From Fragilaria crotonensis (lineage: Eukaryota > Bacillariophyta > Fragilariophyceae > Fragilariales > Fragilariaceae): DNA of 49,680 bases. Positions 862 through 40,859 of this stretch are shown here, in pieces (the first letter of the stretch is position 1; each line of letters starts with the position of its first letter). The position numbers and the translations under genes were made by a program. Location: NCBI GenBank assembly GCA_022925895.1, contig JAKSYS010000476.1:1-49680 (forward strand). Direction: 5' to 3'. Below the pieces are notes generated by a model. The model made no database searches, had not been told where the DNA came from, and saw only the letters and a program-made list of their open reading frames with translations.

Positions 862-1608
862 GTATTGACAGGCGACCAACGGAGCTACATGTTCACACGT
901 CGACAATGCGTACCGTACTGTTTTTGCTGGTTTCATTTGAGTAGAGAATGTACATGAAGTTGTTAGAAGGCGTTGTAGTATTTTTTCTTACGATGTTATT
1001 TGTAAATACTCCGAGCACTGCCTTACAACTATGCACCCCAGTATACTCCACGAAGTATGTAGTGAACGACGACGAAACAGGAGCCACAATGTTCCCAACT
1101 AGGGGGGAACGGTGCCACGCGGTTTAGGAAAGGCTCCCATTTAGAAACATAAACCGATGAGATGCGGTGATGCAGTTCAATGATGATGCTCACTATGGGC
1201 TCGAAAGATGGGAATTGTATAAGGGAGATTCATCGAGCACCCCAATCTTTTGCGATTGGTCCGAAAACACAAATAGCACACAGCATGCTTACATTATCCT
1301 GCACGCCGTCGTTATTGTCATACACCAACTTCACAATGCCAGAAATCCACCCAACACCAGAGGGAACGCTTGGACCGCTCACCGTCGGCCTGGTGCTTGG
1401 TGACGAATTTGGAATCAAGTTTACGAAAGGTGCTTCGCTGTGCTCGCGGGAAGGCACTGAGCCCACGCAAGAAGCGTACGAACCCCTTCATCAACAAAAA
1501 TGCTTCCAACACTGTCGCCACAGGTACACACGATTCGGGTCTCCTCTGCTACTGTCACGTCCGTGATGGGTCACATAGATTAGTATCGACCATGAACCAA
1601 CCATCTAA
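862..1608. other. Intergenic, no gene recognised
   Basis: Several short overlapping ORFs occur on both strands, but none has a recognisable domain or a splice pattern that extends it. The stretch may be part of a degraded retroelement continuing into the Copia remnant at 1609. Confidence 0.4.
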
Positions 1609-1797
1609 ATGTCCTATTGCACCACTTTTCGCGGTCACGTTGAGCACAAGGTTATAAGCATCCATCCCATCAGTATCAATGATCAGCCAGCAGATTACTT
1701 GACAAAGGCATTAAACGAGGAAAAATTTTCCCAGATTTGTCGTACGAACTGTGAGATCTTCCATACACCGTCGGGTGCACGAGGGATTGTGACATGA
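1609..1797 (+). mobile_element. Ty1/Copia retrotransposon remnant (end of RNase H)
   Basis: A 62-residue frame carries the signature that closes Ty1/Copia polyproteins: RGHVEHKVISIHPI followed by DQPADYLTKAL and a short C-terminal tail. In the intact family this lies at the end of the RNase H domain, where the reverse transcriptase product is processed. Integrase, reverse transcriptase and recognisable LTRs are absent from the neighbouring bases, so only the 3' end of an old insertion survives. Copia elements are abundant in diatom genomes. Identification rests on the DQPADxLTK motif. Confidence 0.75.
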
Positions 1798-1950
1798 CCA
1801 GATAACCAGGAAGGTCCGGCCAAAGTATGTTCTAGCCGTTGAAAGTCGTTATTGTCGTCATTTCAACGTAAGCCGGGCTTAAAAAAACATGTGTTGCGAT
1901 ATTTGTAGCCGGAACGGTCGCTCAAGCCGAGCCGGCAAGGCGTTCTCATG

Positions 1951-2080
1951 TAAGTGGAATTCCACTTAGGGTGAGTGGAATACCACTTAGGGTAAGAGGA
2001 ATTCCACTTAGGATAAGTGGAATTCCACTTGGGGTAAGTGGAATTCCACTTGCGAAGTGGAATTCCACTTACCCTAAGTG
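1951..2080. repeat. Palindromic 21-base minisatellite, block 1
   Basis: About six tandem units of roughly 21 bases, each centred on the 16-base perfect palindrome AAGTGGAATTCCACTT and joined by a TAGGGTA-like linker. Near 2052 the orientation of the linker reverses: TAGGGTA before, TACCCTA after. The block therefore contains an inverted junction. Confidence 0.9.
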
Positions 2081-2150
2081 AAATGCTTCGTTACCGAACA
2101 GGAGTCATACTGAAATCTGTAGGCGACACGTGTGTCGATCGGATTACGAG

Positions 2151-2292
2151 TAAGTGAAATTCCACTCAGGGTAAGTGGAAATCCACTTAGGGTAAGTGAA
2201 ATTCCACTTTGGGTAAGTGGAATTCCACTTAGGGTGAGTGGAAGTACACTCAGGGTAAGTGGAATTCCACTTAGGGTGAGTGGAATTCCACT
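2151..2292. repeat. Palindromic 21-base minisatellite, block 2
   Basis: Seven units of the same 21-base repeat as at 1951-2080, with the palindrome partly eroded in several copies (GTGAAATTCCAC, GTGGAAGTACAC). The period is a multiple of three, so a repetitive ORF (2132-2518) crosses it with heptads such as RVSGIPL. That ORF is an artefact of the repeat. Confidence 0.9.
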
Positions 2293-2656
2293 GACTCCGA
2301 ACTCCGAACCACACCATAAACGCGCCGGCCTCGCTTTTTATCTTTTGAAAACGACTCAGCGTGGAAACGACACTCTTACTATGACGTGTTACGTACTCTC
2401 GGTTTTTCCACGATTCCGACCGAGCGGCCGGACCTTCCAGTACTCGGAGTTCGGAGTACCCTGGTACCTGGTACCCGGTTCAAGTACTGCGAACGATGAC
2501 TATGCATCTACTGTATGATCTACTACTATATGCATGTATGCTTCACCGACGGGATTCACTGGTACAGACTTCGTACAAATCCGGCCTCCGGCCACATATC
2601 AAAGACGCAGTATCGTAACCAAACGATCGTAGGACATGGTGGTCCTTTGAGGTATG
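2293..2656. other. Intergenic, no gene recognised
   Basis: No coding signal is seen. It contains one of the many GTACCTGGTAC motifs of this window (2464-2474), embedded in GGAGTACCCTGGTACCTGGT. Confidence 0.5.
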
Positions 2657-2705
2657 TTCATAGTTCATAGTTCATAGTTCATAGTTCATAGTTCATAGTT
2701 CATAG
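2657..2705 (+). repeat. Microsatellite (TTCATAG)x7
   Basis: Seven tandem copies of TTCATAG, the last one slightly changed. It lies just upstream of the gag-like remnant. Confidence 0.95.
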
Positions 2706-2848
2706 TACATGGGATCCATGACTTTACAAAGCTTATACTTTAAAATTTTACTATAACTTGTTGATGCATACAATACGAGGTGTAAAATCACACTCTTCCA
2801 ATGTGCAAGTCAAAAAGAAATAAAGCAACACCACGGCTGGAAAGCTAG

Positions 2849-3250
2849 ATGTTGCCTTTGCATTCTCACCAGCACTTGATGCATTAAATACTGGTTAAAT
2901 GATACACTTACTATGCAAAAGTTAAGATGAAGATAAAGCAAAATCATGGGTTGCCTTTGCATTCTCACCAGTGATAGCGGTTCAAGGATTGCTCAATTTT
3001 ATGAAGAGCAAAACTCCAAGATCTACAAATCAGTCATCAGGGAAGTCCTCTGCAAGGAACCATTCAAATGCAAGGCCGAAGGACTCTACCAGTTTCTCAA
3101 AGACATCCTTGACAGAGCTGACGAGATGGGATGATCCAATGGCCTCCTGAACATCATGTTGGAGGTGATGGATGACAACCGGCCAGCCAAAGAGGTCCAA
3201 TTTCTTCAAACGATTAACAGAAAATGGAGTTTCATTTCATGTGATTCTGT
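2849..3250 (+). mobile_element. Degenerate gag-like retroelement fragment
   Basis: Translating in shifting frames gives AFAFSPVIAVQGLLNF, then a piece containing KCKAEGLYQFLKDILDRADE, a stop, then NGLLNIMLEV. This order resembles the gag-like proteins of diatom LTR elements (aromatic FxFxP start, a GLxxFLxxxxxRA segment, a GILxIP-like end). The frame changes and has a stop, so it is not functional. A 22-base segment (2851-2872) is repeated perfectly at 2950-2971, which suggests a local duplication. The family assignment is from memory of the pattern and is tentative. Confidence 0.35.
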
Positions 3251-4138
3251 TCCTTGTCACCGTAATTGGAATCATCACAACTGGGAGGGAGAATTGAATC
3301 ATAGGATGAAGATTCTCCTGATGATCTGATTGAACCATCAGATGGTGGTGACATGGTCGTGCAGGTTGTACAGTGGGTGCAAGACAAGTGGAGCACCCCA
3401 TTTCAGAACAGTGTCCTCTTTCATAAACTAGAACTACATGCTTGGGCACACCATCTGACATTCTGGTGCGTGTCCTCTGTCAGGGCAATCCAGAGAGTTA
3501 ATGAGAAGAGGGGATGTTTATACAATGAACCCACAACTTCTTTATTGTTATCCCTAACATCATCCTCGAATACACATTAACATGGGGAGAAGGCTCGGGG
3601 CTCGATAATCACTTTGTCCTTCGTACCAAAATTTGGAAAGTACAGCATACTAAAACGTTCAAAAAGTACAAAAGTACACATTGAATTCATACATAATAAT
3701 TCGGGACTTGCAAAAGACCATTCTCGGTTGGATTTATGATACGTACGAGGTACTACAGTACTTTTCTACAAGTTTTTCTCCTGTTTTTCGTAATGTACCG
3801 TTACTGGTTACAGGTTTGGATGAAATTGTTGGGCTGGCGAACTGGCGAGTTGAAGGCGGATCTTTCGGGTTTTCATTCACTCATGAGCGTGGCAACGTGA
3901 TAAGGTGTGCTGTCTCGAAACATTTACGTAGTCATCCCTGTGGACTGTAAAGTAGAGGGGATCCTACGTCTTGCCATCATTCGAAGATAATGTTTGATCT
4001 TGAAGGTATCTGGACACGGCCGTAGAGTGATACTGAAGAGGATCGTACGAGTAAAGGAGACATGAGGCCTGATGATGTCAAAGGATTTCAGGGCACTAAC
4101 TCGTCAGTAAATCGTTTTCCTGCACCCTTTGCCTGATC
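3251..4138. other. Intergenic, upstream region of the Psb31 gene
   Basis: Only short ORFs without domains (for example 3681-3950 on the plus strand). The last 150-200 bases should contain the promoter of the Psb31 gene, but no convincing TATA element stands out. Confidence 0.4.
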
Positions 4139-4960
4139 ATGAAGCTCTCCGCTGTCGTCTGCGCCCTCGCCGCCACATCCGCTGCTGCCTTTGCTCCTTC
4201 CACTGGCATGGTATGTCCCCTTACGTTTCGTTTTAGAGGGTGCTTCCGTGCTTCGTAATTGGCCTGAAGTTCATAGATCCGTTTGAATCCTCGGGCCTAT
4301 GCTGTCGTCGTAGGCGAACTGTAGTTCTGGTGTCTCCACTTGCTGAACCATGGATGCTCACCTTACATTTTTTGTCTTTATCGCTTGCTTATAGCGCACC
4401 AGCACTTCCTTGAATGCCGTTGACCGTCGTGCTGCTTTTGGACAGATTGCGACTGCTGCGGCTGTTGTTGCCCTTGTTCCTGGTGCCGCTCAGGCTGATG
4501 GTGCCGTCTCAACTGCCACCAAGACGAAGGCTAAGGTTGTTTACGGTGGACGTATCGCTGATTTGAAGAGTGCTGTCGCCGCTGGTGATTTCGACGCCGT
4601 TGCGGCCGAGAAGAACGCGTTCATCCTCTTCAACTCTGGTGCCTACCCAACGGCCAAGGACAAGGCAAGCAAGGCCAAGGCTATCGAGGGAACCAATGCC
4701 ATCTTCTCGGCTGTGCGCTCCAAGGATAAGAGCGCGCTCAAGACTGCCTATGACTCCTATGTGGCATCCAACTCCATCAAACCGATCCCAAACCTTAGCA
4801 ATACTCAGGGCCAGTCATACGCCTCAGACTTCAGCTACCTCGCCAAGACTCCTGCTGCGTAAGTTTTCCAATCCTCGAAACTGTAATCGTATTGCTCTGC
4901 ACATCATCGCCATTTCTAACATTTTTACCCCTGAATTTTAGTGCCATCTACCAACGCTAG
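4139..4960 (+). CDS. psb31: Psb31-like extrinsic protein of photosystem II, plastid precursor
   Basis: Three exons can be read: 4139-4210, 4395-4858 and 4942-4960. Introns are GTATGT...ATAG (184 bases) and GTAAGT...TTAG (83 bases). The 184-residue product starts MKLSAVVCALAATSAAAFAP, a signal peptide with the diatom plastid cleavage motif around Ala-Phe. After it come a transit region and a twin-Arg thylakoid signal (DRRAAFGQ, then a hydrophobic stretch ending AQA at about residue 58). The mature part of about 126 residues has the features of Psb31, an extrinsic subunit of diatom PSII on the lumen side that supports the oxygen-evolving cluster: a four-helix fold with KNAFILFNSGAY and the C-terminal segment SNSIKPIPNL. 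The last exon adds only AIYQR. The exon map keeps one frame and canonical splice sites. Confidence 0.85.
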
Positions 4961-5223: not shown

Positions 5224-6003
5224 TCAAGGGGGACTTGGAGAAGGACCATGCAGTTGCTGTTCGAGACCTTTGACATCGGCCAACTCCCACACCTTGATGA
5301 TTTTGCCATCTTTAAGAGTAAACTCAGTCGCTCCCATCCACTCGACCGGCCGGCCGGTCGGTGAATGACCAAGCAACGAACTGGTGTGCTTTCCGGTAAA
5401 GCGCACTCTGCAAAATGCCTTGTTCCCTTCCACTACCATGGAATGGATTTCACAGTGAAAATCGTCCAAGGCATCGCGGATCGTAGAAACCATCCTCGCA
5501 AACCCATCGTGACCCACACGATCCATTCCAACAGCACCGTTGAAACGGAGTCCCTTGCTACAGACGCGAGGGATGAGTTCCAAGTCTCCTCGGTTCCAAA
5601 TATCGGCAATGAATTTCTTGACTATCTCTCTCGTAACATCGTTGCGTCGAACTAATTCCAGGGCCTCCAGCTTCGTTGTGTCGGAATTCAAGGATGATGG
5701 AGGCGATACGTTGGATTCTGGTGGACGTTTGAGCTCACGATTAGACAAGATCGATGAGTTCGCTGAGCTGCTGTCGAGCGAACTCCTCTCTCTATTTGGA
5801 ATTGGAATAGCTGCCTGGTGAGGAGCAGGAGGAGTCACTCTCTGTACCTGAGGTAAGGGTGGTTGATACTGCGCTTGTTGTTGCTTCGCTTGATTCGCAT
5901 GGTTGTTCGGATCTTCACGCTGGCGCACTGCCATCGAGGACTTCGTCGCGACAACTCCAGACTTGTCGGAATTAGCTTTAGGTTTCTTGGAAAACAGTCT
6001 CAT
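5224..6003 (-). CDS. SnoaL-like (NTF2-fold) protein with disordered N-terminus
   Basis: A single 259-residue frame starting MRLFSKKP. Residues 1-115 are low complexity, with Gln, Pro and Ser runs (KQQQAQYQPPLPQ). Residues of about 120-245 form a SnoaL-like domain of the NTF2 superfamily: REIVKKFIADIWNRGD, DGFARMVSTIRDALDDFHCE, CRVRFTGKHT, and a GKIIKVWELAD end typical of the last strand. SnoaL-like proteins include polyketide cyclases and many small-ligand binding or isomerase proteins of unknown substrate, so the role cannot be fixed. The N-terminus resembles neither a plastid signal nor a membrane anchor. It converges tail to tail with Psb31, whose stop is 263 bases away. Confidence 0.75.
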   Translation of the reverse strand: MRLFSKKPKANSDKSGVVATKSSMAVRQREDPNNHANQAKQQQAQYQPPLPQVQRVTPPAPHQAAIPIPNRERSSLDSSSANSSILSNRELKRPPESNVSPPSSLNSDTTKLEALELVRRNDVTREIVKKFIADIWNRGDLELIPRVCSKGLRFNGAVGMDRVGHDGFARMVSTIRDALDDFHCEIHSMVVEGNKAFCRVRFTGKHTSSLLGHSPTGRPVEWMGATEFTLKDGKIIKVWELADVKGLEQQLHGPSPSPP

Positions 6004-6301
6004 TGTATTGGAGTATGATTTAATTGCGCCAGTCTCAAAGTCCCACGTTCAAACTTGCTTTTCTTTTTCCCTGGTACTAATACGTAATGACCGCAAAATG
6101 AAGATGTTTGAAAGATGTTAATGGCGTTGGTGCTGGTGTGATGGAGGTTTGCAGTCCAGGATTGCTACTCTTAGAACCCACAGCTCATTCGCGTGTGTCG
6201 AGCGTCGAACGTCGTGGTTCGAACCTCACGTCAGACTTCAAACTGTGCTTATAGCAACGAACTTCAGTGTTGCACCCAAGAATTTTTGCGAGATCACTAC
6301 T

Positions 6302-6337
6302 ACTAGAGACCATTCGGGCTCTGAACTTTGGCCTGAT
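6302..6337 (+). repeat. Left terminal inverted repeat of the 5.5 kb element
   Basis: 36 bases starting ACTAGAGACC. It pairs with 11752-11787 with a single T/C mismatch at position 33. Confidence 0.9.
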
Positions 6338-6537
6338 TTCTGGTTATGAGCTCAATGTCGGCCCAAAATTTAACGCCTTCCATGGAATGCAAACTTCAGC
6401 CACAAAGCAAGACATAAAAAAAAATCGTTTAGGAGAGTCGCTGGCCGTGCTCTGTATTTTTACGCGCGCATTTGAGTACCCTTGTGCTCCAGAAATCCTT
6501 TCTAGTGCAAGGGCTCTAGCTACAAGTGTGCTGCGCG

Positions 6538-8039
6538 ATGACTGCTGATGGTGATGATGACAATGATGGCTCGTGTTCAACAACGTGGGAATCGCTGATT
6601 CCTACATCATTCAATTTGACTCTATACATTCCTTCTCTGAAGATCTCTGTAACTGCAGGATCCTTCATAAGATACACCAGCTTGGTGGGTGAGGTGTCAC
6701 CATATCATGTCGGTCGGGTGATTGAAATTGTTGCATCTAAAGATTTGATTCCTGGTGGTTATGAACGCTATGAACTACTCCGTCATGAACCACCAGATCA
6801 ATTTAAAGATGAAAAGCTAGTTCAGTTCGCAAAGGTCAACATCTTCAAGGACAGTCAATTTTTGAGTGGGAGCAATTTCCAAGTGCGAGATGATCCTTGT
6901 CGGTTGGATGGATATCAAAGAATTGTCCAGCTCGACAAGTTTAACTGGATACCATCATATCTAGTTGTCGGGCTAGCATTTGTTGCTACGGAGGATGATG
7001 CCTATGATGATTGTCAAGGCATGTCTAACTTTTATGTTGCAACGTATCGCATCACAGAAAGCGGTAACATCTCAATCATCCCACGACACACATGTCCGCC
7101 GTTTCCTGGTAAAATCAAGAATTTCTACGATGTTTGGTCTGTCGATCACTGTGAGCTTATCTTCAATTCTATCCGGCATATAAGACAAGAAATTCAACGG
7201 ATTCTTTGCCGTGTAGCTCAATCTCAGGGTGACTTTGCAATGAGGAACTCGAAATTGCAGCTACCAAGTTGCTCTTGGTTTTCATCAAGAACACGATGAA
7301 GGCCAAAGGTATTGACAGTATTGCAGCTGTCAAATACACCCGACCCCAAATCCTGCTTTCATGGGGTCTTGTGTATCATTCTTGTCGGCATACTGGATAC
7401 CTTGAGGTGCTACGTTTTGACACAAGTAAGAAATTGGAAGTGTTTCGGTCGCTCTTTGGAAGGATGGCTGGCTTCGGGGTACGCAAGACGCGACCCAAGT
7501 ACAGTGATGGCCGTGTTCTCTTGAGCTTGAATGACGTTCTAAATGTTGTCTTGTGTCCTTCCAAAGAGGACAATGTAACTGCAGACGATGATACAAGCGA
7601 TACTTCTCTGTGTCCCTTTCAACGGTTTGGAATTACAGAAGATGGGATTGACCTGTCGTATGATTCATCGGATGGCACACTGTTGATTTCTTTGCGATAT
7701 CGAAAACTAATTGTGACAAATGAGTCGATGCAATCACTTGCTGGTGTCGGTGTTTCTGTTGGAGGTACTCAAACGCATCCCAGCATTGGAGCTTGTGTCG
7801 TGTCCGGCGAAATTGAGTCCGATGAGAGGTTAAGTACTAAAATTGTTGCAGGAATGGAGTTTATCGACCATACATATGTGATGCGAGTTCAAGAAGTCCG
7901 AAGGACTGAGATACACGCCAAGAAGGTTTACATGATCCATAATACTCGGATGACAACCAAAGTTAATGAATCCGAGGAGGTTGTTGTTTACACCGACATG
8001 GAACACGTTTATCAGAAAATTCAAGAAATGCTAGAATAG
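6538..8039 (+). CDS. Element-encoded accessory protein, frame broken near 7234
   Basis: Two overlapping frames read as one protein of about 500 residues. Frame 1 opens at ATG 6538 and ends at 7299. Frame 2 is open from 7233 to the stop at 8039 and contains NEELEIAATKLLLVFIKN directly after the break. A missing T in the TTT at 7234-7236 would join them (frame -1). The N-terminal half, with GSFIRYTSLVGEV and HVGRVIEIVASK, looks loosely like a BAH-type chromatin-binding fold. The C-terminal half is unrecognised. The ATG is preferred over a GTG 12 bases upstream. The gene lies within the terminal repeats and ends 36 bases from the oppositely oriented transposase candidate, so it travels with the element. 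Function unknown; the BAH suggestion is weak. Confidence 0.5.
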
Positions 8040-8074
8040 GACTATCAAATTTTTAATCGCTCGTAGAAGTGTCT

Positions 8075-10438
8075 TTATTCCCCGTCACTTGTGATGTATC
8101 CCATTTCAAAGCTCTCATCAACATCGCTGCCTGTGGTGCTAATGCTACTGTCGTCATCAATCTCCTCGTTAGCGTTGTCATTGTAGGAACTATCGTCTTC
8201 ATCGTCAAGAACCTCCTCGTCCTCTGCTGTAAAAAGAGTATCACCATTCCCGCTGTACCACATGATTCGACGCTGCAACCAGCGAGCAATACCCAAGAGC
8301 TTACTCTTCTTTGTTGCATTCTTTGATAGGCCACCTCGATTAGTCCGACGAAAAAAATAGGCTTTAATCAATGCGTTTAGTGCTTCCCATCCCTGCTGTG
8401 AAAAACGATGCAAACACTTCCACTCTTGCATGTACCTCATAACATGCGATGACGAGAGCATGTGGGTGTAGTTTGTACATCCTTCTCTCCCGTAAACTGT
8501 TACCCAATCTTGAAACCAGGCATCGATGTGATCCTGAAATGTACTGATCTCATCCAGTGTAGCATCGGTATCTTTCCGGAGAATAATCATAGCAGCTCTG
8601 TATCTTGGAAAGCATCGAAGCAAGCGCCGTTTGTTGTCATCTGAGTTAGGAAATGAGACTTCAATCAATAGCTCGATTGAATTCATGACTGACCGAGTTC
8701 GATTGTTGTCCATTGATAGGGTGCCAACATTCCCTTCCTCTGTCAGGGGAAACCGCCACTGCGAAGGTGCCATCAAAGAACCAAGAATTTGAGTTTGAAT
8801 GATCGTTGTGATGCAACCAATGTACTCTTCCTGTCGCCTTTTTGCACCGCTTGCAACAGTCCACTCCAAAATCCCTTTTCTTGCATTCGATAATCCTGAA
8901 CGAAGAATGCTCTCGATAGATTTGAGACCAACTCGATTCTCCAAGTGAAGAATGCAAACAACAGCCTGAAGTACGAGATACATTGCCTGGTCCTTGGGTT
9001 CGCTTTCAGAGAGCATGCGAGCTATGTGGTGAGCTCGTTGTTCATTTACAAGCTGCTCTCGGAGTCTTTGTTGCCGTTCACTAAGAGTTCCCATGACTTC
9101 CATTCCGCGACTTGCAAGTTCATCAGTAATGTGACGTGACCAAAGCGCCCTCATGTTTGGTTCACTCGGTTGATTGTCTATATCCATGGTATCGCCATCA
9201 ATCATCACCTGGCCTGACTGACGCACATACATCTTTTGCTGATTGTTATTGTTGGCATCATTCATGATGACATCTCGAAGAGAAGTCAAAACTCCAAGCT
9301 CGTCCACTAGCTCTTGTCGAACATTGGGATCCATGAGAAATGGATAGTGATAACAATGCCGTTCTTCCACCTCGCCATTTGTTGGTGGTGCCTTGTTCTT
9401 ACACAATGCACATTGCGACTTATCTTGTGGTACATGCAGAGTTGACGAGCGACAGGGACATATGTAACAAAACTTTTCTTTCACCTTTGCTGCGCCACCG
9501 TCGTCAAGTGCTCCCCACTGCAGTTTCATGTCTCCAGGGAAGGACATTTTGAAGGCGTGACATCGCAAGGCTCGAGACACCTCACCAGAATTAAACAAGT
9601 TGTACAGTGGCCGAAAACCGTCGAGAGTTTTCTTGCTGTCCTTTGCAATAACAATTCGGAGTGGAAAGCAGAGATTGCGACTCTGTACCAAAGAGTCAGG
9701 TTCGTGAAGTAAAAGTGGGCGCTTGGTTACTGGATTGCACATCGCCATGTCATTTAACTTTAATCCTGCAGCAACATGTGATATTGTGTTTGTGAGTTGA
9801 GCCCCATCGGACGTAAGTCCTAACTCAACTGGCCGCTGCTTGGCGATGTTCTGCAAACCAAATGCCTCAAATAGTGTATGAGTGACTTTGATCGAATCAA
9901 ATTCAAAGCCTTCTCCAAACGTATCATCATTATCAACACTAGTACCTTGCTGTCCTTCGTTGTCTTGATACATTCGCCCAATCATCGTAAAGGGGCAAAA
10001 CCTGTCGGCAGCTGCTTCAAGCTTTCTAGCCACTCGCAATATTGTTGATTTGCTTGTCAGTACACTTCGCACATACTTTCCCTGGACATCAACACCTCGC
10101 AACACTTCAATACCTGCAAGACTTAAATTAAATCCAGCAATATCCATAGCTCTTAGGATCTTCCATGGCGAGAAGACATGGCTGCGAAGGTACGAACGAA
10201 CTCTATTAATCATACATGCTTTCACTTCTCCGTCAAGGAAATTGTTGTCCCACATGCAATCTACGAGCAGTGCTGCCTTGCTCTTGTGACGGTATCGTTT
10301 CATCTTCACATTCAAAAATGTCGACAGGAGTAATACCAAAGAGTCACTATTCTCTCCTGGTGGTGCTGCTTGCATTGTTGAAGAAATGTTGGCGATTTCC
10401 GAATGACTCCACTCAAAGGAAAGGACGCTATCAATCAC
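8075..10438 (-). CDS. Candidate DDE-type transposase of the 5.5 kb element, main ORF
   Basis: A 787-residue frame, open upstream to about 10477 without an ATG, so the nominal GTG start at 10438 is probably internal. Visible landmarks are LGLTSDGAQLTNTI (an Asp in a strand context), LQWGALDDGG followed by a Cys cluster (CYICPC, then CALC and a paired His), and a late FSQQGWEALNALIKAYFFRR with a conserved-looking Glu. Together these suggest an RNase H-fold D-D-E transposase with a zinc-binding insertion. A strongly acidic tail (EDEEVLDDEDDSS) ends the protein. I cannot place it in a named superfamily; Kyakuja/Dileera/Zisupton-like or Plavaka-like families are possibilities. The ORFs at 10455-10823 and 10852-11310 are probably its N-terminal parts. 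Confidence 0.6.
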   Translation of the reverse strand: MIDSVLSFEWSHSEIANISSTMQAAPPGENSDSLVLLLSTFLNVKMKRYRHKSKAALLVDCMWDNNFLDGEVKACMINRVRSYLRSHVFSPWKILRAMDIAGFNLSLAGIEVLRGVDVQGKYVRSVLTSKSTILRVARKLEAAADRFCPFTMIGRMYQDNEGQQGTSVDNDDTFGEGFEFDSIKVTHTLFEAFGLQNIAKQRPVELGLTSDGAQLTNTISHVAAGLKLNDMAMCNPVTKRPLLLHEPDSLVQSRNLCFPLRIVIAKDSKKTLDGFRPLYNLFNSGEVSRALRCHAFKMSFPGDMKLQWGALDDGGAAKVKEKFCYICPCRSSTLHVPQDKSQCALCKNKAPPTNGEVEERHCYHYPFLMDPNVRQELVDELGVLTSLRDVIMNDANNNNQQKMYVRQSGQVMIDGDTMDIDNQPSEPNMRALWSRHITDELASRGMEVMGTLSERQQRLREQLVNEQRAHHIARMLSESEPKDQAMYLVLQAVVCILHLENRVGLKSIESILRSGLSNARKGILEWTVASGAKRRQEEYIGCITTIIQTQILGSLMAPSQWRFPLTEEGNVGTLSMDNNRTRSVMNSIELLIEVSFPNSDDNKRRLLRCFPRYRAAMIILRKDTDATLDEISTFQDHIDAWFQDWVTVYGREGCTNYTHMLSSSHVMRYMQEWKCLHRFSQQGWEALNALIKAYFFRRTNRGGLSKNATKKSKLLGIARWLQRRIMWYSGNGDTLFTAEDEEVLDDEDDSSYNDNANEEIDDDSSISTTGSDVDESFEMGYITSDGE

Positions 10439-10454
10439 AATCTTTGCAAGCCGA

Positions 10455-10897
10455 CTAGTTGGAAAGACTGGAACTTGTTATGAAGTCATGAATTCGAATA
10501 GAAAGCTCATGTGAAAGTTTGGCATTCTCTATTTGCACACGACGTTTTCTTCGTGCAGAGCTCTCCCGAACTTTTCCATCATTGTCATTGCCACACCCAG
10601 GGCTCACGGGGTCACACCTTTGTTGAAATTTGAGTTGTTCCAATTCAGCAGTAAGAGTCTCCACGGTCAGTGCAAGTTGGTCATGGCTGTCATCGAGGTC
10701 CTTGAGTTGCTTATTCAGCAACTCATTTGTCGCTTCAAGCATGTTGATTTGTTCCAAGAGGTTCCGTTCGTTAGAAAAGCCATTTTCATAGATGGCTGCT
10801 GGTGTGACACAACCAGTCACCATCGGTGTTGAGGTGTCGTGTTCAACCTCCTCAATTGTGACCGCTTTTCTTGTATTTCTTTTTCGTCGGCGGTAGT
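10455..10897 (-). CDS. Coiled-coil segment, probably the middle of the transposase gene
   Basis: The frame is open from about 10897 (YYRRRKRNTRKAV) to a TAG at 10455-10457. It includes a basic stretch and then a Leu heptad coiled coil (LLEQINMLEATNELLNKQL and on), ending with a second basic helix (SSARRKRRVQIENAKL). This basic plus Leu-heptad order is bZIP-like. The stop lies only some bases inside the open frame of the 787-residue ORF. Removing one T from the CTTTCC run just before it would run the coil directly into that ORF (LPTSRLAKIVIDSV). I therefore read it as an internal part of one long gene split by an indel, although a short intron or a separate small protein cannot be excluded. 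Confidence 0.45.
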
Positions 10898-11310
10898 ACT
10901 ACTACAAGCAAAAGTCTTCGGGGATCAGCACAATCTGGCATATCATCACTGACATCATCGTCCTCTTGTTCGGAATAATTGCAGATGTCAAAATGCAAGA
11001 GAGAATCTTGCTGTCGTCGAGGCTTTTTCTTGGTAGGACTTTTGCTCGGAGATTTCACTTCATCATTTTTGTCGGAATTGCCACGTGCAGAATCTTTTCT
11101 GCCTGTTGGTGCTGGCTTTACGTTTCGCTTCTGTCGATACTTTTTCTTGAGTGTGGTAGGGTTGCTCACATAAATGTGACCACCAGTGCACATGTACTTT
11201 TTCATCTGGCGATGTACTTGTTTGGTGTTTCTTTCCACGGCATCTTCTAACAGATCACACCCATGGCAAAAAGAAGTAATCAGGATACTCTGTCTTCCTT
11301 TCTTTTCCAA
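10852..11310 (-). CDS. N-terminal basic/zinc-ligand segment of the transposase gene
   Basis: A 152-residue frame with no ATG near its start; upstream it is open only to a TGA about 12 bases before the nominal TTG. It contains a Cys pair (FCHGCDLL), a second Cys/His group (MKKYMCTGGHIYV) and a Lys/Arg-rich stretch (TLKKKYRQKRNVKP). That is what a DNA-binding N-terminus of a transposase might look like. A weak GT...AG pair (donor near 10953, acceptor near 10899, about 55 bases) would join it in frame to the coiled-coil segment. The first exon or true start is not identified. Confidence 0.35.
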   Translation of the reverse strand: MEKKGRQSILITSFCHGCDLLEDAVERNTKQVHRQMKKYMCTGGHIYVSNPTTLKKKYRQKRNVKPAPTGRKDSARGNSDKNDEVKSPSKSPTKKKPRRQQDSLLHFDICNYSEQEDDDVSDDMPDCADPRRLLLVVVLPPTKKKYKKSGHN

Positions 11311-11751
11311 ACGTGAGACATGTCACTGGGCAACTCCTGGTTCGTTTGTAGAGGTCATTCCGCTGCATGTTGCTCATCTGCAAGATACGAGTGCTGCAAT
11401 CATGCGATTCGTTCTATGAATAAGGGGGTCTCGCATCGCAGCTGTGAAAAAACTCCTGTAGAGCGTACATGGGAATTAGTACAAGAATATCTTTCGTCCA
11501 CGTGGAAGGTCCATTCTCGACCACAAATCGACTTCACCAAAATGCCGAACTTCGAAACGTCCGTGCACATCAGGATGCAGCACCACTCAATGAGCATCAT
11601 TGTGCACGCTTTCATCGAAGTTCAAGGAATTGGTGGAGAAAACGTACATCATCTGAGCTCAAAAACCGTTATTTACTCTGTCATAATGACTTGATTTTTC
11701 ATCATACAAAATTAACAGTGGTAACGGTGGTATAACGAGAAGCCGGCGGGA
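11311..11751. other. Right non-coding part of the 5.5 kb element
   Basis: Between the minus-strand ORFs and the right terminal repeat. Short ORFs here (for example 11320-11694 plus strand) show no domain. The promoter and possibly a first exon of the transposase gene should lie here. Confidence 0.4.
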
Positions 11752-11787
11752 TCGGGCCAAAGTTCAGAGCCCGAATGGTCTCTAGTG
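11752..11787 (-). repeat. Right terminal inverted repeat of the 5.5 kb element
   Basis: Inverted copy of 6302-6337 with one mismatch. It is followed by GTGTCTACTCGAG. Confidence 0.9.
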
Positions 11788-14413: not shown

Positions 14414-15091
14414 GTAATGGCTTGGTTTTAGAGTGAGGTCATGCGGACATTGTTGAGAGTTTCACTAATGCGCCAGCACCTTCTCGAGACGGAGTACAGT
14501 AGTATCTGTTGTGAGAGGAGAAGACGATGAGAGTTGAGGATGGGCTGGCGCAAGTTGTGTGGAGAGTTGTGAGGTGTGAGGTGGCCAGCTGCTACTGGCG
14601 ATTGGCGTACGGTCCTCAGCACAGAGTACCTGGTACTACTGTTACTCAAATACGGTCGATTATTCCTGCATAAACTCGTGTACAGAAGCGCACTGGACTA
14701 CAACTCCAAAAAGGTACTGGAGTACTTCAGTGCTACATACAAGTACCGTTCTATCTCTCCCTACAGTCCTGTCGTTGCCAATGGAATTCGGAATTTCATA
14801 ACCGTCGCCAAAGAATTGTGACCATTTTCGTGCGTAACTAAAAACTAAAGTAGAAATTCTTGTGTTCGTACAGGTGCGACGTACAATAATTACCATGGGA
14901 GAGTACCTCGTACTCAGTGAACGAGTAATCAGTGGTACAAGCAGTATATCGGCTATTGGACTTCTCGGACATCACGTCATGGTACGAGTATGACCTACCA
15001 GCGTACTACAGTACCTGGTACCAGGTACGAGTCAACTGAACAGCCAACTGCCGCATCATTCGAACCGCACAACAATATATATTCTGCGACG
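14414..15091. other. Intergenic between divergent NPRL3 and APH1 genes
   Basis: A shared divergent upstream region. It is dense in GTAC palindromes: GTACCTGGTAC at 14626-14636 and the 18-base perfect palindrome GTACCTGGTACCAGGTAC at 15011-15028, about 65 bases before the chosen APH1 start. Confidence 0.5.
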
Positions 15092-15967
15092 ATGACAGCG
15101 GCTGCACTCGCGTGGGGATCAGCCTTTCTGGCCTTCGGACCAGTCGCATCAACACTCTTTCTGATTGTGTATCAAAAGGCCCAGCTGGTGATTGTTGTAA
15201 CAACATCAGCCTTTGCGTTTTTACTTTCTTCTTTGGGTGCGTCATTGTTTTGGTACATGTTTCACGCGGCTGGTGTCAACCATCCAATCACCATCTTGCT
15301 TCCTGGAGTCATCTTCCAAGGAATCATGCGATGCGGTTTTGTGGCTTTATATCATAGGGTGGAAAAAGTTATTGAACTCAGCATCGCCAGACATGAGCAA
15401 CATCAAATTCAGCTCGGGGAAAGCGAAGAAGCCATGGCGGAATCGGCAAGACTGCGACTGGAACTCAACGATTGGGCCTGTGGTTTGGCTGCTGGAACCG
15501 GATTCGGTGGTATGCATGCCGTTCTTCTGTATGGAACGCTGCTTGCGAGTGAATCTGGAAATTTGGGAACGCTTATCCAAGATTCTTGTCCCAACATGCC
15601 AGGACTCCTGCTATCTGCAGTGAATGCTTTTCTCTTTACTATCCTCGATATGATCTGGATGCTATTCACCTTTTTTGGGATGAGACGAAGACGATCACCA
15701 GGAATGGATTGTTCACGTGGCGTTGGAGCTATGATTGGAAACAGTAGACAATCGGGAAACATCGCGCTTGCTATTTGTGGCATCACACATCTAGCAGCCA
15801 GTTTTGCCACGACTCCCAATGTGTTTGGAGGGGGATGCAGTGTTTCGATTCCCCTTCTCATAGGGATTGTGCTCCTGACCGTTTGTGCTTTTGTCATGGG
15901 TGTTTCAAAGATTTATTTGCCGGCTTATCAGCGACGACGCATGGTGGTCGGAGGTATCCATGACTAA
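15092..15967 (+). CDS. APH1: APH-1, gamma-secretase subunit
   Basis: A 291-residue multi-pass protein. The frame extends 34 codons upstream to 14990, but that part includes the GTACCTGGTACCAGGTAC palindrome, so ATG 15092 is the likely start; it places the first helix (SAFLAFGPVASTLFLIV) at the N-terminus as in the family. The AFGP motif of helix 1, the GTGFGGMH helix with small residues and a conserved His, and a later His (CGITHLAAS) match APH-1. About seven hydrophobic segments are visible, with loops containing LEL and charged stretches. APH-1 is the scaffold of gamma-secretase, which also needs presenilin, nicastrin and PEN-2 and cleaves membrane proteins within the bilayer. A short RRRR stretch ends the protein. 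Confidence 0.75.
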   Translation: MTAAALAWGSAFLAFGPVASTLFLIVYQKAQLVIVVTTSAFAFLLSSLGASLFWYMFHAAGVNHPITILLPGVIFQGIMRCGFVALYHRVEKVIELSIARHEQHQIQLGESEEAMAESARLRLELNDWACGLAAGTGFGGMHAVLLYGTLLASESGNLGTLIQDSCPNMPGLLLSAVNAFLFTILDMIWMLFTFFGMRRRRSPGMDCSRGVGAMIGNSRQSGNIALAICGITHLAASFATTPNVFGGGCSVSIPLLIGIVLLTVCAFVMGVSKIYLPAYQRRRMVVGGIHD

Positions 15968-36087: not shown

Positions 36088-36360
36088 ACGGGGTTAATTA
36101 ACCCCGTTTTTGCTCATATCGGTAATCGTTCCTGTTATCTTGTACATCGTCCGTTTGGATCCAAACTTGCTGAGCGTTGTAAGAACTGTATGAAGGAGCA
36201 TGGTTGAAACGGACAGTAGGCCAGTGTTTGTGGTTATTGAGTTATCAGTGTTGTTCTGCGCGAATTTTTTTCCCTCCCAATTTTTTGAAGTCGTGAGAAT
36301 TCTCGACGATGATATTGATGCGTTCACAGCTCATTGATATCATCATTAACTGAAGTGAGA

Positions 36361-38666
36361 ATGAGCAGCAACGATCCTCGTTACCAGGTGGGGGCATTAG
36401 TGCATGCAAAAGCCATGCATGTAACGGCTCTCATTGAGTGTCACCGACGCTACGGCAGCAACGCAAAAACGAAGCTTGTCAATGGTACGGTCACAGAGCT
36501 TAGAACGGTCCCATCATCTAACCAAAAGCGAACGGTGACTCTCATTACTGCCATCTACAGCCTTGGTGGGCAGTGCAGGAAGGTTGCTACCTTGAATTCA
36601 CGGTCAGTCAATGCTGGTCATGTTGCAGCCATCCCCAACGAAGGTAATGGACCCGGGACCGAACTCGTGACTCAAGTTTTGATTCCGATTGACATCGCAA
36701 ATGAAACCTCCACCGCCAATGAAGCAAATGATGTTGATGGAACGCCCTCAAACATTGACATGCACACTGAAAGTGAGACAATTGTACCTGATGGTTTGCC
36801 TGTTGCTCCAGAAGGAGGCCCTCAGGATGTTACACAACACGTGCTGGACACTGATAATAATGCTCCTTCTCGGACCGCAGCAACTGCTCATGGTATAGAA
36901 TGGGTCAGGGCATCAGTGAATGCATCACCATTGAATGGCAATTTCCCCAGGCGAATTTGGAGCATCCGTAATTCCGTTGGTGATGTGTTGGCTCCAGGAG
37001 GAAATGGTGTCGCGACACAAAACATGTCACCTCTCGAATTTTTGTTGTTGATGTTTCCTCCCAAGCAGCTGACTGACATGGTCCGCTGGACAAATATCCA
37101 GCTTCAGAAATCATCAATGAAAGAGACAACGCCCAGTGAGGTCCTCAAATTCTTTGGGATCCTAATCCTAACAACAACATTTGAGTTCACGACAAGAGCA
37201 TCCTTGTGGAATACGACGGCATGGTCCACGTATCGACCGGCACCTCAGTTCGGGTTGACCGGGATGTCAAAGAACAGGTTTGAAGACCTGTTTAGTTGCA
37301 TGAGGTGGAGTTTTCAACCGGCTGTTCCTACTTTTGAAGGGGAAGAAGAATCATCCAAACGATATAGGTGGAAGCTTGTTGATGATTTCGTTAAAAATTT
37401 TAACGAGCATCGAGCCAACTACTTCAATCCATCTGAGATGATCTGTGTGGATGAAAGTATGAGTTGCTGGTACGGACAGGGAGGCCATTGGATCAACCAT
37501 GGCCTCCCTCAATATGTTGCAATCGACAGGAAGCCTGAAAATGGCTGTGAGATCCAGAATGCTGCGTGTGGTATGAGCGGAGTCATGCTGCGACTCAAAC
37601 TTGTTAAAGGCGCTGATCTGCCGGGTTCAGAAGAAGAGCAGTTTGGAAACAACGATGATGATAGCTTGCTTCATGGCACAAATGTGCTGAAGCATGTCGT
37701 GTCACCTTGGTTTGGATCAAATTGGGTTGTGTGTGCCGATTCGTATTTTGCTTCTGTTGGAGCTGCAAAGGAACTGTTCCGTAATGGCCTCCGTTTCATT
37801 GGAGTGGTGAAGACCGCAACACGTGGTTACCCCAAATCATTCCTAACAAGTGTTGAGCTTCAGAACCGCGGAGATTTTGTTGCCCTTTGGTCGAATGCAA
37901 CAGAAAATAGTCCAGAACTTGGGGCAATGGTGTGGATGGATAGGAGCGCCGGTATTTCATTTCGACTGCGGGCAGTTTTGAATGGGGACTCCGTATCAAC
38001 GATGCCGCTGGAGGCAAGTTGACCCGGCACCAAATGCAGCTCCGCAACAAGTGGTGTTCACGATTCCCCAGCCAAAGATTGCTGAAATGTATTATACAAC
38101 TTGTGGAGCAATTGACAGGCATAATAGACTTCGTCAAGATGACCTTCGCATCGAGAAGAAGATCGAAACAAAGGATTGGTCTCGGCGTGTGAACTTGTCA
38201 ATTTTTTAGATGATTGTTGTGGACACCTGGTTGGTGTTTAATGCGATGAGGAACACACCAACTGTTCAACTAAATCAAAAAGAGTTCTATTCTGTCTTGT
38301 CAGAAGAGTTGATCGACAATTCCTATGGTAGCAGAGGCTGCCCCACAAGTCAACCCCGATCTTCACCAACAACGAATGCGGCGTCTTTTGTCCAGGATGC
38401 ATGTATGAGAGCATTGAAAAGTGGAGGACCACGTGCCGGTGTTCTGACACACTTGACACCTGTCAAGCGACTCAAAAATAGCAAGGGTGAGAGGACTAGT
38501 TTTAGATATCAAGGAAGGTGTAAGGAGTGCCAGAAGAAGACCACTTGGCAATGCTCAGACTGCGGCGATGGCGGAAAAACTGTCTACCTTTGCGCCACAA
38601 AAAAATGGAAAACGATGCTTCTTGGACCATCTGGCTCGCAATCATATGCACCTTAGTGAGTTATGA
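36361..38666 (+). pseudogene. PiggyBac-type transposase, two frame breaks and one internal stop
   Basis: The gene opens at ATG 36361 (MSSNDPRYQ). The DDE_Tnp_1_7 fold of piggyBac is clear: EMICVDESMSCWYG (first Asp), VVCADSYFASVGAA (second Asp), GAMVWMDRSAG (third Asp in W-x-D context) and CGAIDRHNRLRQDD. At the GGGG of 37984-37987 the frame shifts by one base into PYQRCRWRQVDP. A TAG at 38207-38209 interrupts VNLSIF / MIVVDTWLVF. At the A7 run of 38599-38605 a second shift is needed to reach the final zinc ligands (CFLDHLARNH). The C-terminal Cys/His cross-brace (CKECQKKTTWQCSDCG) is typical of piggyBac transposases. The three Asp survive, but the stop and shifts make this copy inactive unless they are sequence errors. 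Confidence 0.85.
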
Positions 38667-39106: not shown

Positions 39107-40859
39107 ATGGCAAACATGAACATCACTAGTTGCAGCGATGAGGCATCCCTCATCTCGGCAAGTCATGGTAGCCGTTTGGAAGTCATTCGTGAATTTATTG
39201 AAATACAACATGGTCGATGAACTTTGTGGCGTGGCCCTCATTTCGGCATGCACGTTTGGCCATTTGGAAATTGTTTGTGAGCTATTGAAGCACGACACGG
39301 TCGACGTGAACGTCGCTGATGAATATGATAAAACTGCCCTCATTGTGGCAAGCGCAAAGGGCCATGTGGAAATTGTTCGCGCGTTATTAGAACACGACAA
39401 GGTTGATGTGAACGCCGCTGATAAAGAAGGTGAAACGGCCCTCATTGTGGCAAGCGAAGAGGGCCACAAGGAAACTGTTCGTGAGTTGTTGAAACATGAC
39501 GTGGTAGACGTGAACGTCGTTAATCGATATAGTGACACGGCCCTAATGCGGGCAAGCACATTTGGCCTTGTGGAAATTGTTCGTGACTTATTAAAGCACG
39601 ACATGGTCGACCTGAACATTACTAATCAATTTGGTGACACGCCCCTCTTCAGGGCAAGCGCCTTTGGCCATCCTAGAGTTGTTTGTGAGCTATTGAAACA
39701 CGACACGGTCGACGTGAACGTTGCCACTCAATTTGGTGAAACGGCCCTCATTGTGGCAAGCGGTAAGGGCCACGTGGAAATTGTTTGCGAGTTATTGAAA
39801 CACGACAGGATCGATGTGAACGTCGCTGCTAAATTTGGTAACACGGCCCTAATGATGGCAAGCACAGAGGGGCACTTGGAAATTGTTTATGAGTTATTGA
39901 AGCACAGCATGGTCGACGTGAACGTAACAAATCAATTTGGTGACACGGCCCTCATCGTGGCAAGCACATTTGGCCATTGGAGAATTGTTCGCGAGTTATT
40001 GAAGCACGGCGCGGTGGACGTGAACGTTGCTAATAAAGTTGGTGAAACGGCCCTCATCAGGGCAAGCGAAAAGGGCCATATGGAAAGTGCTCGTGAGATG
40101 TTGAAACATGACGTGGTCGACGTGAACGTCGCTAATCAATTTGGTGACACGGCCCTAATGAGGGCAAGCTCGGTGGGCCATGTTGACATTGTTTGTGAGC
40201 TATTGGAGCACGAATTAGTCGACCTGAACGTCGCTGATGACGATGGTGAAACTGCCCTCATCATGGCTTGCCTTAATGACCATTTGGAAGTTGTTTGTGA
40301 GTTATTGAAACACGACATGGTCGATGTGAACTCCACTTTTGATCACGGCAATACGGTCCTTATTTGGGCAAGCACAGTAGGACACGTGGAATTTGTCTGT
40401 GAGTTATTAAAACACGGCATGGTGCACGTGAACGCCCTTAATGAATGTGGTGAAACGGCCCTCATTGTGGCAAGCAGAAATGACCGCATGGAAATTGTTC
40501 GTGAGTTGTTGAAACATGACATGGTCAATGTGAACGCCGCAGTTTCACATGGCCAAACTGCCCTTGTTTTGGCGAGCCAAAGAGGCCATTGCGATGTTGT
40601 CGATGAGTTGCTGAGACACGGAGATGTGGATGTTAATGCTCGTTGTTGTCGTGGTTATACATCGCTCATGTGGGCTTGCCTACGAGGTAGATGCGACATT
40701 GTTTCCTTGCTATTGAAACATGGCAATGTGGACACGAATCTGAAAAACAAAGCAGGATCGACAGCGCTTGATGTTGCCCGCAATTGCAAAATTCTTGACA
40801 TTGTCAGCCTTCTTAAAGAGCACGCCTATCAAAAGCGAAAGATCCGAAAATTTGAGTGA
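39107..40859 (+). CDS. Ankyrin-repeat protein, about 16 repeats, one frame break near the start
   Basis: From about 39290 to 40790 the protein is an unbroken array of 34-residue repeats of the type HDxVDVNVxxxxGxTALIxA, then S..GH.EIVxELLK. About 15 repeats end with a slightly different cap (KAGSTALDVARNCKILDIV) and a basic tail. Ankyrin stacks bind other proteins; no enzymatic or membrane domain is attached, so the partner is unknown. The long frame formally opens at 39138, but the bases from 39107 (MANMNITSCSDEASLISAS) read as a repeat in another frame. An extra T in TTT at 39194-39196 separates the two; without it the repeat would continue (RLEVIRELLKYNMVD). Repeats are very alike at DNA level, which suggests recent expansion or gene conversion. 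Confidence 0.85.

Follow-up and report, generated by a model that had tools for sequence, protein, structure and literature searches.

The window analysed here, 49,680 nucleotides of the freshwater diatom Fragilaria crotonensis (GenBank contig JAKSYS010000476.1; contig C421 of the 62.1-Mb genome), carries at positions 6301-11787 what is probably a cut-and-paste transposon belonging to no named superfamily, with a transposase of predicted RAG1/Transib fold, near-blunt insertion and a second gene of predicted BAH type. A sequence-only reading had proposed an undescribed DNA transposon at this place, and defined ends, copies in the genome and pairs of filled and empty sites bear that out. The 36-nt inverted repeats on which the proposal was built are present in the window sequence at 6302-6337 and 11751-11786 (97% complementary); comparison with other copies places the true ends at 6301 and 11787, each one base outside those boundaries, and the full terminal inverted repeat is 37 nt long, beginning CACTAGAGACC. 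The right repeat of the window copy is identical to the left repeat of the copy on contig C87 over 37 of 37 nt. The element and its ends are laid out as follows.

6301-11787: whole transposon, 5,487 bp, with ends from copy comparison and a near-identical copy on C87.
6301-6337, plus strand: left terminal inverted repeat, 37 nt; its first base is T, and C in most copies.
11751-11787, minus strand: right terminal inverted repeat, 37 nt, CACTAGAGACCATTCGG...
6301-6431, plus strand: left subterminal stretch of ~130 nt, retained in some short non-autonomous copies (whole-element DNA search).
11464-11787: right subterminal stretch of ~324 nt, all or some of which survives in many short non-autonomous copies (42 matches, including the window and full-length copies).
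6300: left flanking base, C.
11788: right flanking base, T, which differs from the left one in the window copy.

A DNA search of the genome with the whole element gave at least 55 matches (40 of 73 candidates scored), and the end pattern, with up to two mismatches, occurred 51 times in forward and 54 times in reverse orientation, compared with 0 and 0 for the reversed control; further copies with the same ends, suggested earlier as a check, thus exist. The C87 copy differs from the window copy by 4 substitutions, all transitions, across 5,483 aligned bases and by 8 indels, seven of a single base and one of 17. The low divergence of these two copies suggests that the element moved recently, and because single-base indels are in excess, some frame breaks in the window copy may be assembly errors. 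Other copies are either diverged and full-length, at 5.5-5.9 kb, or short. At four further full loci the ends were sought and were located for L016 and L018 (left end damaged); those of L014 and L017 were not located. En/Spm-like subterminal repeats were also looked for, yielding few shared 9-mers. One locus, L029 (C613:11000-20999), holds several short family copies within 10 kb, one nested inside another. Two groups of short copies, on C66, C120 and C437 (L047-L049) and on C55, C279, C296, C314, C656 and C171 (L046, L050-L053, L055), were distinguished, of 476-477 bp and 828-840 bp; their ends are CACTACAGATC and CACTACAGAAC, and both groups were probably mobilised by relatives of the element.

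Insertion is near-blunt, with one duplicated base as the commonest outcome and none as a close second. Flanks were compared in 38 independent paired copies, that is, 41 pairs less the repeat records L019 and L054 and less the L029 pairing 1581-4891, an outer element around a nested one. The left-flank base equalled the right-flank base in 24 of the 38, compared with a mean of 9.8 under shuffled pairing and with none of 5,000 shuffles as high (binomial 7e-7), and longer flank duplications stayed at chance level (2 bp in one copy, 3 bp in one, 4 bp in one, 5 bp in none). CACTA...TAGTG was intact at both ends in 31 of the 38 copies, 22 of which had the 1-bp match; two extra copies beyond this set gave one match and one miss. 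Allowing for chance matches, we estimate a true 1-bp duplication in about half of the copies.

Empty sites were found for other copies and 13 insertions were examined through them (five sites of many for each of L009 and L036, two of seven for L038, one of two for L044), while for the window copy no junction-spanning match occurred among the scored candidates (40 scored, of 278 and of 400). One duplicated base was read at L009 (five sites), L010 (five, with a difference of ~8 bp nearby), L036 (five), L041 (one) and L012, whose empty site carries further differences. At L009, L010, L036 and L041 the empty site is one base shorter than the joined flanks, and the 1-bp duplication there is therefore genuine; blunt insertion at doubled bases was rejected on these junctions as the sole account. 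A one-base extension of the inverted repeat was rejected as well, the flanks being equal in 24 of 38 copies and complementary in only 4. Zero duplication was seen at L021 (two empty sites) and at the nested L029 insertion (three clean, two with a 1-bp difference nearby), and L056 and L044 look like 0 bp, with a nearby indel at the former and a diverged empty site at the latter. L052 lost one base, L051 duplicated two against a diverged empty site, L023 with its damaged ends gave no clear duplication reading, and the diverged L038 can be read as a longer duplication. The fixed target duplication that the sequence-only reading had looked for is not what we found: it is 0-1 bp in most resolved cases, and variable.

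These footprints bear on whether the element could be a regular member of EnSpm/CACTA that has lost its 3-bp target duplications or had them misread. Its CACTA...TAGTG ends fit that explanation, as does the CxxC/His-pair plan described below, which excerpts of PMC12730594 present as common to EnSpm, Transib and RAG1 transposases. A 3-bp duplication, however, appears in 1 of 38 copies and three doubled bases in none of 11 resolved empty sites, and an ordinary CACTA element with hidden 3-bp duplications was rejected on the latter. Among the families listed for 43 transposase relatives at E <= 1 (25 of 36 shown), PF02992 (Transposase_21) does not appear. We consider this origin very unlikely.

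The transposase itself occupies the minus strand. The open reading frames (ORFs) there, including one of 787 residues, had been taken for several proteins; the ORFs are present and form a single fragmented transposase gene, in which the smaller ones at 10455-10823 and 10852-11310 supply the N-terminal part. They are joined into one gene because relatives are long and the frames are open across diverged copies: a protein search with the 787-aa ORF gave 69 matches, including the window's own, many of them 1,050-1,233 aa long, and open transposase frames span 1,157 codons in the copy on C273, 1,162 on C120, 1,143 on C150 and 1,119 on C233.

8075-11368, minus strand: transposase gene, ~1,100 codons, interrupted by several small frame breaks in the window copy; start mapped to ~11368.
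8075-10438, minus strand: 787-aa ORF with the catalytic domain.
9806-9808, minus strand: putative first catalytic Asp, D211 of the 787-aa ORF (TSDGA; D504 of P0004), invariant among 20 and on a strand of the model.
9530-9532, minus strand: putative second catalytic Asp, D303 (GDMKLQW), invariant in relatives.
9458-9469, minus strand: CxxC pair C324/C327 (CYIC), putative zinc ligands, both Cys invariant among 20.
8444-8464, minus strand: His pair H659/H665 (TNYTHMLSSSH), separated by five residues, both invariant among 20.
8384-8386, minus strand: proposed third catalytic Glu, E685 (QQGWEALN; E983 of P0004), invariant among 20 and located in the final part of the RAG1 alignment.

Across 20 relatives there is no variation in the D of TSDG or of GDMKLQW, in the CxxC after the latter, in either His of TNYxH.....H or in the E of QGWEALN, and the His spacing is H(5)H in six of six proteins checked. 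When the predicted model of the relative P0006 was used in a structure search, it matched RAG1 and HzTransib far above everything else. In this model a strand carries the first Asp, the second comes after strand four, and a late helix contains the proposed Glu. Residue-level correspondence to RAG1 is read from alignment ranges. The catalytic glutamate of RAG1 is E962; E685 was chosen because the RAG1 alignment ends not far beyond model residue E1028, with model 1084 facing RAG1 1008 (E962 is named in PDB titles). The Glu of ILHLENR (E498 of the 787-aa ORF), another candidate, was set aside since it falls ~240 residues before the alignment ends. TNYxH presumably resembles a RAG1 motif, and a profile of this segment run against sequences of solved structures found no RAG1. 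We predict that the transposase is a RAG1/Transib-fold DDE enzyme, and the RAG1-like model and the invariant residues support the sequence-based proposal of an RNase H-fold DDE enzyme carrying a Cys/His insertion. A Cys/His segment at the N terminus and a coiled coil (P0006 residues 221-280) suggest DNA binding and dimerisation.

The view that sequence would not assign the protein to a named superfamily was upheld by the profile search that had been proposed alongside structure prediction: Pfam gave no convincing match for the 43 relatives at E <= 1, only 36 weak families, many of coiled-coil type, with a best E of 0.008 among the 25 shown. A profile built from distant members and used for a further protein search brought in six proteins, of which four were new, without leading to any named family. 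A scan of viral contigs gave 47 pattern matches with no relative among them, and a viral structure library yielded nothing at E <= 0.001, a search in which a missing match excludes nothing.

Convergent with the transposase lies the accessory gene, whose product had been described as a plus-strand protein of about 500 residues after repair of one frame break; the C87 copy, open over 506 codons, confirms this.

6538-8039, plus strand: accessory gene (ORF2), ~500 aa, with one frame break near 7278.
6607-7110, plus strand: predicted BAH-fold domain of the accessory protein, its limits being approximate and placed by eye using P0071 residues 28-191.

In the structure search the N-terminal half of the accessory protein has a BAH fold in the predicted model, and the C-terminal half is barely covered. 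A BAH profile was not among the 9 Pfam families returned for 38 accessory members at E <= 10, where HMMER filters drop most weak matches. The gene stands 162-627 bp beyond the transposase match and on the opposite strand at 26 of 32 transposase loci, a lower bound merged from a genome search with 48 of 81 candidates scored. A second clade keeps the pairing, its accessory proteins being 25-31% identical to P0071 (C38:98032-101315, C361:56253-59607, C1:42261-45863, C690:80216-83614 and C243:40307-43467, several with open transposase frames). The dN/dS ratio of the accessory gene is 0.17 and 0.21 in two of three pairs, the third having saturated synonymous change, which indicates that the gene is under purifying selection; for the transposase it is 0.18 in one of six pairs, with the remaining pairs saturated at synonymous sites.

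Captured genes occur in some transposons, and the plus-strand gene could be a captured host gene or a passenger without a role in transposition. No accessory gene was detected at 6 of the 32 transposase loci, and its function is a prediction, both of which favour this explanation. The same convergent neighbour nevertheless recurs at the other loci even at the identities of the second clade, and purifying selection likewise argues against a passenger; we also counted against it the 5 of 31 accessory loci that have no neighbouring transposase match, a 120-bp fragment among them. A passenger is, on this evidence, improbable. The accessory protein may instead be a BAH-domain partner acting with the transposase on chromatin, and the earlier suggestion of an unrelated second protein with a possible chromatin role holds in that form, given its BAH-like predicted fold and a linked gene under selection.

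Several results weigh against the transposon as described. The predicted models are moderate, with a pLDDT of 71 for the P0006 transposase and 78 for the accessory protein, and no sequence profile, whether from Pfam or against solved-structure sequences, ties either protein to a named family. The 1-bp match is absent from 14 of the 38 copies, including the window copy with its C and T, and the target duplication is not fixed, the 13 insertions comprising four at ~0 bp, one with a lost base (L052), one at 2 bp (L051) and two unclear (L023, L038) besides those with one duplicated base. The 0-bp, 2-bp and lost-base cases also favour a different explanation, in which the transposase excises the element and the host joins the free ends into chance double-strand breaks, leaving no true duplication. 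The 0-bp empty sites of the nested L029 insertion therefore put more weight on host end-joining and less on EnSpm/CACTA. Against host end-joining, the excess of 1-bp matches over every shuffle and the intact CACTA ends in most copies point to a constant geometry, and we regard it as unlikely.

For the transposon that we favour, the transposase would pair both CACTA... ends and cut exactly there, nicking and cutting as RAG1 and Transib do. Joining of the ends to the target, with attack points one bp apart or directly opposite, would mostly produce a duplication of 0-1 bp. The BAH protein would bind nucleosomes, either choosing targets or enabling activity of the element within silenced chromatin, a role modelled on that of the RAG2 PHD finger for RAG1, and the short copies would be mobilised in trans.

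To our knowledge, Transib has no comparable second gene. Zero-duplication Harbinger relatives are the Spy elements, which carry a PIF/Harbinger-type and not a RAG1-fold transposase. Other comparisons draw on excerpts of two papers. As described in those of PMC7204232, RAG-like transposons have convergent RAG1-like and RAG2-like genes, 5-bp duplications (as does Transib) and, in protostomes, the end consensus CACTWMCAAAC..., and RAG2-like proteins consist of a kelch propeller, with a PHD finger in most. With RAGL/ProtoRAG and RAG1-RAG2 the diatom element shares the predicted RAG1 fold, two convergent genes within inverted repeats, CACT ends and a second protein of chromatin-reader type; it differs in its 0-1 bp duplication instead of 5 bp (none of 38 copies at 5 bp), which also separates it from Transib, and in a predicted BAH fold, seen in the N-terminal half of the second protein, where the animal systems have kelch and PHD. 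Sequence similarity was not found, and the host is a diatom and not an animal. The shared convergent layout and CACT-type ends would fit an accessory protein descended from RAG2's ancestral partner and altered beyond recognition, whereas the kelch and PHD architecture contrasts with a BAH-like N-terminal half and a barely covered C-terminal half, and we judge such descent most improbable.

The excerpts of PMC12730594 give the CMCT clade mostly CA...TG ends, C(2)C and H(3-4)H motifs between the second D and the E, and duplications of 2-5 bp. EnSpm/CACTA and CMCT (Mirage, Chapaev, Plavaka, ESTA, Lanisha) share with the diatom element their ends and the CxxC and His pair between second Asp and Glu, whereas its His pair is 5 instead of 3-4 apart and its duplication 0-1 instead of 2-5 bp. 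The same excerpts note a 0-bp duplication class among Harbinger relatives, and fungal transposons carrying TET/JBP, whose accessory gene is likewise of chromatin or DNA-modification type, though it encodes an enzyme acting on methylcytosine and not a BAH-fold protein. The element works like a RAG-like transposon and is not filed under RAGL, Transib, EnSpm or CMCT.

Elsewhere in the window, adjoining host-type genes encode a SnoaL-like protein (5224-6003) and Aph-1 (14990-15967). A 562-aa ORF at 36334-38022 has a DDE_Tnp_1_7 domain (PF13843, E 8e-33) and belongs to a separate transposon on the same contig, which we take to be piggyBac-type. A 573-aa ankyrin-repeat ORF lies at 39138-40859, with a DNA period of 102 nt over 39217-40740, and two adjacent arrays of 21-bp units at 1908-2335 are mutually inverted repeats.

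In the titles and abstracts of the open-access literature, with subscription journals and Repbase outside the search, we found no description of this element, nothing on single-base target duplication as a trait of a transposon superfamily, no transposon-encoded BAH domain accompanying a transposase (BAH and DNA transposon judged by title) and no RAG-like CACTA element in stramenopiles. Near-blunt integration is likewise without description for RAG1-fold or CACTA-type transposons in the excerpts compared. A stagger of 0-1 bp made by a RAG1-fold transposase would be a new geometry for the fold, next to the 2-5 bp of the clade in PMC12730594, and could be explained through comparison of transposase structures. 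We give roughly even chances to the broader proposal that a two-protein RAG-like recombinase arose in diatoms independently of animals, combining a RAG1-fold transposase, a convergent BAH reader in place of RAG2 and 0-1 bp integration. RAG1 is the enzyme that rearranges antibody genes, and together with RAG2 it is the textbook example of how a transposase and its chromatin-reading partner turned into an immune recombinase. If the proposal is true, a RAG1 fold joined in the same layout to a different partner of chromatin-binding type would mean that the pairing is something that recurs, as opposed to a chance event confined to animals, and the purpose of the partner would become testable in a second system.
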